DNA of 64,000 nucleotides, taken from Eubacteriales bacterium. GTDB lineage: Bacteria > Bacillota > Clostridia > Lachnospirales > Lachnospiraceae. Within the stretch, counting starts at the first letter, position 1, and every line of letters begins with the position of its first letter. The notes below the pieces were generated by a model, which saw nothing but the letters and a program-made list of their open reading frames with translations, ran no database searches and was not told the origin of the DNA. The stretch covers positions 62,001-126,000 of the forward strand of contig JAUNGC010000004.1 of the NCBI GenBank assembly GCA_030524745.1, given 5' to 3'. Positions 12,965 to 23,085 of this stretch are shown here, piece by piece. A program made the translations under genes and the position numbers.

Positions 12965-13849
12965 CTATTTGGGCTGATAAGCTTTCCAAAATCTTTCCAT
13001 ATATTCTTCTGCATTTTGCTGTGAAAGAGAAAACTTTTCCATTAATTTCATCATGGTTTCTTGTCTGGAGAGTTTAAATTCCATGCAAATATCTATCAAA
13101 ACTCCAATTCCGGCTTCCCTTCCGAGTTCAAACTCGTCTTCACGGATCTTTTTGAGTTCAATTTCTTCATTGTATTCAAAAATCGACATTGCCATTACCT
13201 CCGCTTTCTGCGTCAGCAAAAATTCTGCAAGAATTCCTTCCTGTATACATTTATTAACTGTACGTTTTACAGCTTCATCAATTCTCATCTCTTTTGCATA
13301 TCTTCTGACGCGATCCACATAAATGCAATATTTTTTTAAGGTTCTGCACTTCTCTAAAAGTTCTTTATTTTTTCCTGAATTGATGTTGAGCATCAAAACT
13401 TTCAGTTCCAATTCGGGTACAGTCACTTCTTTTTGAAATGCATCTGATAATTTTAAAATCTGTCTTTCCGGCTGATCTTTTGTACCAGTGTAAAACACCA
13501 CAAATCTGGGAACCGGAATCTTTATCAATTTTGACGAATATATCGATTCATTTCTGAAATATTTTTCCAATTGCCTCGCAACGTAAATCAAATCCCGCAA
13601 AGGCATATTGGGATTAAAAGAGGACTGTTGTTCATAAAGATTTAAAGTCGAATCCAACAGAAACGAAACGTCATTCTTTACATTCATGAAAATCGCACTT
13701 TCCAGCGTATAGACTTCCAGATCGTCCGGATTATCATAGAATGTTTCATTCAATGCGTTATAAAGCTGCAAAAGTTCCTTTTTGTCTTTGTACAACATAC
13801 GGAATATCGTATCTTTGTACTTTCTCATCACACTTAATTGTTCTGCCAT
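12965..13849 (-). CDS. Rpn-family / PD-(D/E)XK nuclease-like protein
   Basis: This 294-residue protein resembles the Rpn (recombination-promoting nuclease, once called putative transposase) group common in gut Clostridia. The core is residues about 35-120: KNDVSFLLDSTLNLYEQQS followed by NPNMPLRDLIY, where the Asp and the E-x-Q set form a PD-(D/E)XK-like site. A C-terminal region rich in charged helices (about 200-290) follows. The gene looks more AT-rich than its neighbours, which suggests separate ancestry. The ATG has an AAGGAG ribosome site. Family members are associated with RecA-independent recombination; the role here is unknown. It lies 242 bases from a long-inverted-repeat element, with no evidence that the two are linked. 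I see nothing certain between 13850 and 14091. Confidence 0.75.
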   Translation of the reverse strand: MAEQLSVMRKYKDTIFRMLYKDKKELLQLYNALNETFYDNPDDLEVYTLESAIFMNVKNDVSFLLDSTLNLYEQQSSFNPNMPLRDLIYVARQLEKYFRNESIYSSKLIKIPVPRFVVFYTGTKDQPERQILKLSDAFQKEVTVPELELKVLMLNINSGKNKELLEKCRTLKKYCIYVDRVRRYAKEMRIDEAVKRTVNKCIQEGILAEFLLTQKAEVMAMSIFEYNEEIELKKIREDEFELGREAGIGVLIDICMEFKLSRQETMMKLMEKFSLSQQNAEEYMERFWKAYQPK

Positions 13850-14091
13850 AGGCTGCTCCTTTCTGTAGTTACGTGACAGGAGCAGCGTTCATCCCAGCTC
13901 TCCTGCCTGTCATTGGAAATTGGTAAGCATAGAGTTCCTGAAATGAAATGCGAACACATACTCAATATTGTCGTTCGCAGTAAAGAAATAAAGAATGGAT
14001 CGGATTCTTAGAAATTTATGCTTGTTGTTATCCTAGCATGAATCAGAAATAAATACAAGGTGCTAAAGTTTGATTTTCAGGATAAATGCAT

Positions 14092-14460
14092 CAAGCGGCC
14101 ATCGGTCTTTGCGCTATATGCCAGTCGCTTCTGTCCGGAGCCTGCCGCCCTGTCCTGCCCGGCGTTGGGAGGCGCACAGGTATTTTTGCCATTCCGATAC
14201 TCAAATCGGGAATTTCCAGCCAAAGCGCCAGCCCGTTCCAAACTGTGAGCCGTTGCGCGAACTCGCGTCAAAGCCAGGCTTTGACGCTCAGACAATACGC
14301 ATCGGCTCACAGGAACGTTCTGACGTTTTGGGGAATTTCACCGATTTGAATATAAGTCATGGCTGCAAATACCTGTGCGTCTCCCAACGCCGGGCAGGAC
14401 AGGGCGGCAGGCTCCGGACAGAAGCGACAAGCACACGGCGCAAAGATCGACGGCCGCTTG
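14092..14460. repeat. Long-inverted-repeat structured element, copy 1
   Basis: Arms 14092-14184 and 14368-14460 (93 bp each) are reverse complements, with about 60 bp nearly perfect next to the core. The core (14185-14367) folds further: GCCAT/ATGGC (14188/14359), TCAAATCGG/CCGATTTGA (14201/14341), CCAAAGCG/CGTTTTGG (14220/14324), CGTTCC/GGAACG (14234/14312), TGTGAGCC/GGCTCACA (14244/14304) and a tip hairpin GCGTCAAAG/CTTTGACGC (14265/14279). Blocks shared with copy 2 are GCGCnAACTCGC, GCTCAGACA, CAGGAACGTTC, TTTGGGGAATTT and ATATAAGTCATGGCT. Short open frames cross it on both strands but follow the palindrome and are not credible genes. Function unknown. Confidence 0.88.
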
Positions 14461-14496
14461 TCGCGTTTATTCCGGTTAGCTTTTTCGGTTTTGCGC

Positions 14497-14531: not shown

Positions 14532-14876
14532 AAGGAAAAGATAATGAAGAAGAGGAGTACACATCCCCTGGCTGACAGAGAGAGCGTCTCACCGGCTGCA
14601 AGGACGTTTCGGCAACAGAATGTGGAAGGTAGCTTCTGAATCGGAAAGCTGAACACCAGAGTGAAGTCGGACAGGCAGCATGCTGCAGATCCGTTTTTGC
14701 TCCGGTAAAGTAAGTTTTCACGGCCGATCCCCGTTACCGGACAGCAGCTTTCGGAATATCGAAAGTATAAAATGAGGCTGTTTTTGGCGCACAGAGCGCA
14801 GACAACAGTGAACAAAGGTGGTACCGCGTATACAATGACGCCCTTTGGTGATGCAAGATCGCCAAAGGGCGATTTT
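14532..14876 (+). promoter_or_regulatory. T-box leader of valS
   Basis: A T-box reads the charging state of a tRNA, here expected to be tRNA-Val, and lets transcription continue when the tRNA is uncharged. The T-box sequence AAAGGTGGTACCGCG (14814-14828) contains the UGGN that pairs with the tRNA acceptor end. It is followed by the competing terminator CGCCCTTTGG/CCAAAGGGCG plus ATTTT (14839-14876). The upstream part has the length and AG-rich features of stem I (AGAGAGCGTCTC). A GTA at 14629-14631 in GGTAGCTTCTGAA is a candidate valine specifier codon, but the stem I fold was not fully worked out. Confidence 0.85.
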
Positions 14877-22471: not shown

Positions 22472-22847
22472 GACTTTGGCTGCGCCCGGCTTGTATGGAG
22501 GGAGGGGCCGGGGGTTCAGGCTTCCCGTCCGGGCGTCCTTCCCGGCGCAGGCAGGCATTTTCGCCATTCCGATATCCGAAACGGAAAATTCTGCCCAAAG
22601 TTTTGGCCCGTTTCAAACCGCCGCATGCCGCGCAAACTCGCAGCCCGCCACAGATTCATGCGAATCTGTGTCAGGCCGCTCAGACAGTGCGCGCCATACG
22701 GCAGGAACGTTCCAAAACTTTGGGGAATTTTCACGTTTCGGATATAAGTCATGGCTTCAAATGCCCGCCTGCGTCGGGAAGGACGCCCGGACGGGAAGCC
22801 TGAACCCCCTTTTGCCAGCCACCACACAGACCGGGCACAGGAAAGCC
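22472..22847. repeat. Long-inverted-repeat structured element, copy 2
   Basis: Arms 22472-22560 and 22759-22847 (89 bp each) are complementary, near-perfect for the inner 50 bp and looser outside. The core keeps the helices of copy 1 with different bases: GCCAT/ATGGC (22563/22751), TATCCGAAACG/CGTTTCGGATA (22573/22734), GAAAATT/AATTTTC (22584/22726), CCAAAGTTTTGG/CCAAAACTTTGG (22595/22712), CGTTTC/GGAACG (22609/22704), GCCGCATG/CATACGGC (22620/22695) and a tip hairpin CACAGATTC/GAATCTGTG (22649/22662). The unpaired blocks GCGCnAACTCGC and GCTCAGACA match copy 1. Open frames of 135-142 codons on both strands reflect the GC-rich palindrome. Function unknown; read-through from sigF would transcribe it. 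Confidence 0.88.
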
Positions 22848-22923: not shown

Positions 22924-23085
22924 ATCAGCGAACGCCGTGTGGTGAGCTGATATGCGCTACTTCTCAACAAGCGAAGCGGTTGAGAAGGGACACGATCAGC
23001 GAACGCCGTGTGGTGAGCTGATATGCGCTACTTCTCAACAAGCGAAGCGGTTGAGAAGGGACACGATCAGCGAACGCCGTGTGGC
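22924..23085 (+). repeat. 71-bp tandem repeat of paired hairpins, 2.3 copies
   Basis: The unit starts ATCAGCGAACGCCGTGTGG and repeats at 22924, 22995 and 23066; the last copy is cut short and runs into the sortase ribosome site. Each full unit folds into two hairpins, ATCAGC..GCTGAT (extended to CATATCAGC/GCTGATATG) and CTTCTCAAC/GTTGAGAAG. The copies appear identical by eye, which suggests recent duplication. The unit contains in-frame ATGs that could extend the sortase frame upstream, but the repeat is better read as leader structure. The gap 22848-22923 shows nothing I can name. Confidence 0.85.

Follow-up and report, generated by a model that had tools for sequence, protein, structure and literature searches.

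The 64,000-nucleotide stretch of DNA analyzed here (the window) carries two copies, W1 and W2, of a long hairpin element, and we lean toward reading it as a non-autonomous mobile hairpin of a REP- or MITE-like kind. This reading is based on the many copies per genome, their presence in some related species and absence in others, their mostly intergenic position, the divergent pairing of adjacent copies, arms that change in concert, and a fixed tip that stands over arbitrary palindromic arms. Counting against it are the lack of a cognate enzyme among 523 open reading frames (ORFs), the patchiness of the family, and the retention of orthologous copies. A first-pass annotation of the window had proposed a structured non-coding RNA or a protein-recognized DNA cruciform, possibly mobile; our results support a structured, apparently non-coding, and probably mobile element, and so bear out that interpretation in part.

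If the element is mobile, its tip and internal loop would be recognized in a folded single strand, most likely of DNA and possibly of RNA, by a putative enzyme that is provided in trans and carries out the copying or insertion of the element. The role of the arms would be to present the tip, their complementarity being kept by template switching between the arms together with selection for the fold, and the outer arms would otherwise be free to change.

The hairpin element in the window

W1 is a 389-base hairpin with a gap of 181 nt between its arms, and W2 is a second copy with arms at 22510-22560 and 22759-22809 that are 96% complementary (Table 1). The two cores are similar in blocks of 67 and 64 nt, at 75% and 80% identity. 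Both copies folded far better than shuffled sequences (z of -35.2 for W1 and -23.1 for W2, with 0 of 100 shuffles as good in each case), which, with the 104-nt arms of W1, bears out the long inverted-repeat structure first described from the letters. Neither W1 nor W2 matched Rfam at the gathering score in a scan of the window, and a search with W1 down to an E value of 1 returned a sole match, to a miRNA, at 21.7 bits against a cut-off of 197; the element thus remains a structured one with no match to a described Rfam family, as had been supposed.

Table 1. Positions of the two hairpin elements and their parts, in window coordinates
Feature	Position	Strand	Basis or remark
W1, whole hairpin element	14082..14470	-	tip motif reads on minus strand
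W1 arm 1, 104 nt	14082..14185		arm detection in window
W1 arm 2, 104 nt	14367..14470		89% complementary to arm 1
W1 core: nested helices, conserved asymmetric internal loops	14186..14366	-	fold and consensus
W1 tip: minus-strand ATTGTCTGAGC / hairpin / GCGAGTT	14260..14296	-	loop and hairpin common to other phyla
W2, whole hairpin element	22510..22809	-	flanked by sigma-factor gene and sortase gene
W2 tip: minus-strand ACTGTCTGAGC / hairpin / GCGAGTTT	22634..22688	-	sequence

The strand originally written out for the element is not the one that pairs better. The minus strand folds at lower energy in 27 of 28 aligned copies of this genome and has more G-U pairs over those copies (192 versus 93). 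The better folding of the tip strand and its G-U pairs, like the conserved internal loops, would suit a structured non-coding RNA made from the tip strand, whose fold would serve, for example, in regulation or protein binding. We consider such an RNA unlikely, and one point against it is that neither the element nor the tips of 18 loci in other organisms match an Rfam family. The conserved blocks of the core had been placed in unpaired positions; this holds for AACTC and TCAGACA, which lie in an internal loop, but not for ATATAAGTCATGGCT, which is largely paired in the consensus.

On one side of W1 lies a minus-strand gene for a 294-aa protein and on the other the T-box leader of valS. The leader (window 14535-14848) scores 90.8 bits, and a default Rfam scan misses it because this is just under the gathering score of 93. 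The 294-aa protein (window 12965-13849) belongs to no Pfam family and matches no NCBIfam model above cut-off, and its gene has diverged DNA matches at several places in same-genus genomes; on the same grounds, and with no relative in viral contigs, it was rejected as a mobile factor. Upstream of the sortase gene, a 71-base unit stands in two perfect tandem copies (window 22924-23065); by eye it holds two small hairpins, and similar stretches occur in same-genus genomes.

Copies, covariation, and the arms

BLAST with the core gave 40 matches in this genome, both strands counted. A covariance model, R1, built from 27 copies of this genome, gave 59 matches at 30 places, all but one of which were matched on both strands; scores were above 106 bits at 29 places and 63 bits at one. 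In alignments of 28 copies (L034 and partial copies excluded; the 27 copies of R1 exclude L012 as well), the minus-strand consensus has 78 pairs with both-sided change in 50, and the plus-strand consensus has both-sided change in 52 of 78. The base changes that keep pairs, reported in the first-pass annotation from the two window copies, are therefore borne out over the larger set.

Strand-neutral counts of arm mismatches gave 161 G.T and 78 A.C in this genome, and 23 of the 27 copies counted were biased one way and 2 the other way. The corresponding counts were 417 to 343 in other phyla (112 copies), 39 to 49 in genome G027, and 16 to 20 in genome G227. The excess of G.T over A.C is strong only in this genome and is weak or absent elsewhere; as a general proof of RNA, the strand bias fails in G027 and G227.

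Three independent comparisons of orthologous arms, covering 381 pairs, revealed 6 compensated both-sided changes, alongside one-sided changes to G.T (15) and to A.C (7) and 6 other breaks. About 0.4 both-sided changes would be expected from the one-sided rate, and the 6 observed therefore indicate that the arms change together. Two papers describe how template switching homogenizes the arms of inverted repeats and inverts the spacer, so that it yields compensatory change (PMC8604942, PMC8794818); an inverted spacer also distinguishes the orthologues L303 and L309 described below. Because template switching between arms also gives covariation, covariation by itself is no proof of a selected RNA, and the earlier statement that the pattern means the fold is selected is not established by the paired changes. 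Selection is better seen in the parts that are not homogenized: the asymmetric internal loops, which stay conserved, and the tip motif, which does so across phyla, point to it.

Between the two arms of a single copy, the outer 50 nt have a median agreement of 0.76 in this genome and 0.81 in G027. For arms taken from different copies the values are 0.43 and 0.42, respectively, about the level of shuffles (0.40 and 0.42). For 21 copy pairs of G027 with cores at least 95% identical, the outer arms (105-155 nt from the tip) agreed at 0.64, and shuffled arms at 0.57; the arms of orthologous copies were 0.86-0.94 alike at 90-135 nt, a slightly different stretch from that used for the G027 pairs. No donor sequence for the outer arms was found in the genome, where 47 of 48 matches were the arm itself or its partner and the other was weak (E 0.05); the outer 50 nt of W1 arm 2 had no other strong match in the genome.

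A further-reaching version of the mobile-hairpin reading, which we hold to be rather unlikely, is a bacteria-wide class of mobile single-strand hairpins with one apical recognition motif, in which the arms would be rewritten as a new palindrome at the birth of each copy. If true, it would imply a new enzyme and hairpin-templated synthesis of arms. The alternative to new arms is that gene conversion keeps the cores alike, as in concerted evolution, while the arms drift. The left outer arms are G-rich in the G027 copies L263-L282 (G 0.44, C 0.18) and A-poor in this genome (0.09).

The tip motif across phyla

Of 299 genomes in the same family, R1 matched 13, with the present genome among them. 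The other 12 contribute 17 loci, whose arm sequences differ but whose apex has a common motif, with small variants. On the tip strand, opposite to that of the first-pass annotation, the motif reads ACTGTYTGAGC, a small hairpin, and then GCGAGTTT. A short apex model, R2 (L043, L053, and L042 were excluded from A6), covaries at 12 of its 16 pairs in a set of 19 sequences, across genera. R2 matched 18 of 25 chosen genomes, with 30 matches in this genome, 81 in G027, 15 in G134, 14 in G063, and 13 in G227, and in the phylum as a whole 17 of 398 genomes, the present one included, had matches in a search whose filters lose weak ones. Within the genus there were 0 to 30 tip matches per genome, a spread that speaks against a non-coding RNA, and 6 of 13 same-genus genomes had no R2 match at E 0.01. 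The distribution of the family is patchy, which argues that its function is not a universal one.

The exact pattern ACTGTYTGAGCGNAGCGAGTTT occurred in at least 120 stretches of a 257-billion-base collection, against about 0.2 expected by chance. Among the matches listed (80 titles) were Cellulophaga, Elizabethkingia, Bacteroides, Capnocytophaga, Ralstonia, Variovorax, Thioalkalivibrio, Selenomonas, Nitrospirales, Desulfobulbaceae, Gastranaerophilales, a Thermotoga bin, and a Vogelbacteria bin. Of the 129 tips in these 120 stretches, 108 had 6 or more of their 8 flanking bases paired; when the right side was shuffled, 6 of the 129 did. When 25 genomes of pattern-matching organisms were searched with R2, every one had matches, from 1 to 44 per genome. 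A plasmid search found the tip in 7 records, with a stem under it in all 6 examined; plasmids of Ilyobacter (Fusobacteriota) and Sulfurovum (Campylobacterota) are among them. In Bacteroidota, Proteobacteria, Fusobacteriota, and other phyla the motif sits at the apex of hairpins whose arms are unrelated, and the Lachnospiraceae, within which a search had been proposed, are too narrow a scope. The same tip on otherwise unrelated hairpins of many phyla points to an unrecognized family of mobile structured elements. We found no description of the family in the literature, including passages of PMC3733652, PMC6006769, and PMC2267715. A tip common to Bacillota, Bacteroidota, Proteobacteria, Fusobacteriota, and further phyla, which reaches 81 matches in one of the counted genomes and has neither a name nor a known enzyme, marks a gap in the catalogue of bacterial repeats.

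A third possibility, which we judge very unlikely, is a structural site in DNA, either a cruciform or a single-strand hairpin, to which a conserved protein of the host would bind and which would spread through recombination, not transposition. GC-GNA-GC is a very stable DNA mini-hairpin, and the tip often has this form, which is imposed by the search pattern ACTGTYTGAGCGNAGCGAGTTT and is also present in tips found by the model; conservation of the motif across phyla would likewise suit a protein-binding site. The patchy occurrence noted above argues against one, as does the absence of matches in an E. coli collection searched with one 53-base query.

A 51-base query found no match in phage records, and among viral contigs the exact pattern had one match, L063, whose hairpin is much like a G227 copy; on these grounds a phage origin was rejected. 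A pattern taken from the outer core of this genome's copies had no match in named genomes.

Probable insertion sites, neighboring genes, and known hairpin families

The flanks of W1 and W2 were searched in 12 same-genus genomes. At the W2 site, both flanks lay on one contig in 8 genomes, and the element was absent from all 8. At the W1 site, the valS leader and the upstream stretch could be compared in 7 genomes, all of which lacked the element; the other neighbor gene of W1 is not at that place in these 7. Presence or absence at orthologous sites, by which MITEs are judged, was thus seen for both copies. Judged from these alignments, the copies look like insertions.

Four further sites were compared between species. 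At the L304 site, the full copy of G003 corresponds to a short hairpin with a 19-bp stem in G002, and G007 and five more genomes have neither (by eye). At the L303 site, G002 and G003 have orthologues with the core inverted (L303/L309), a flip that counts against the RNA alternative, and G007 has just a hairpin with a 19-bp stem. One copy, L305, is common to three species in the same orientation, and another, L306, is shared by two species, with G008 and G010 aligning across the site without a copy. We could read no target-site duplication at either L304 or L306. The short hairpins of G007 and G002 may be deletions, not precursors. The short hairpins at these two sites raised the idea that terminators are targeted, which neither gene orientation at 120 loci nor G007 at the second site supported. 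At three sites, two or three species have kept orthologous copies, which would also fit a useful function, and this retention is a point in favor of the RNA alternative.

With naive ORF calls, the 129 tips at 120 loci of other organisms lay between co-directional (50), convergent (11), or divergent (11) ORFs or inside ORFs of at least 150 codons (9), and 48 were unplaced; background ORF pairs of those loci were 349 co-directional, 71 convergent, and 53 divergent. In co-directional contexts the tip strand is mostly antisense (13 of 15 in this genome and 33 of 50 elsewhere, though 12 of 29 in L037-L108), and the neighbor genes at the 120 loci are not consistent; both observations count against a transcribed RNA. 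All-against-all BLAST of the 523 ORFs near 120 tips gave no recurrent transposase-like cluster, as judged by eye. The clusters were small, with at most 5 loci each, and by eye consisted of housekeeping genes.

Mobilization of a REP/REPIN family by a RAYT transposase (TnpA_REP, Y1_Tnp) is quite unlikely in our view. The hairpins are dispersed, and adjacent tips within 700 bp form divergent pairs (12 divergent, 0 convergent, and 3 on the same strand among the matches listed). In 13 of 24 G027 copies GTAGG, a REP-like trait, stands 95-175 bases upstream of the tip, against 0 of 24 downstream, and searches for Y1_Tnp found it in 9 of 18 genomes of one set and 17 of 25 of another. However, a tip adjoined none of the 58 Y1 loci examined within flanks of up to 1.5 kb (20 of the 58 were shortened by contig ends), and G734, G732, and G134, with 17, 21, and 15 tip matches, have no Y1 match; a RAYT/Y1 transposase as the partner is not supported. 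In G027 one tip and a Y1 gene are 2.7 kb apart, for which the chance is about 8% with 81 tips in 5.7 Mb. There is no GTAG at the foot of W1 or W2, and the elements are about 10 times the length of a REP.

Passages of two papers describe REPs and REPINs as dispersed imperfect palindromes in inverted pairs, with many copies and no gene of their own, and REP hairpins as 20-40 bp long with GTAG or CGTC at the foot and a cognate RAYT (PMC3733652, PMC6006769). The present element is likewise dispersed, palindromic, multicopy, gene-free, and found in inverted pairs. Unlike REPs, it is 300-400 bp long, its apex rather than a GTAG/CGTC foot is conserved between genomes, and it was not found beside RAYT genes at the 58 Y1 loci; neither a 20-40 bp hairpin with such a foot nor a flanked Y1 gene was seen.

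MITEs, ERIC, Correia, and BOX elements are short non-coding hairpin repeats whose presence differs between relatives. The present element is also non-coding, hairpin forming, and variably present among relatives, but unlike theirs its tip is common across phyla while its arms are not, and we know of no parent transposon for the family. Integron attC sites are imperfect hairpins with conserved unpaired bases in an otherwise variable sequence, as is the present element; its motif appears to differ from the attC boxes, and it does not lie in cassette arrays. The family offers many natural test cases for which factor recognizes the tip, and for how far perfect stems come from template switching as opposed to selection on RNA.

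A class I aminoacyl-tRNA synthetase cluster (by eye) lies near the hairpin in 4 of the 120 loci, L110, L115, L162, and L170; valS likewise lies near W1, a recurrence that may be due to chance. At L045 of genome G166, a Clostridiales-1 RNA (positions 1800-1968, 97.9 bits) lies about 250 bases from the hairpin tip.
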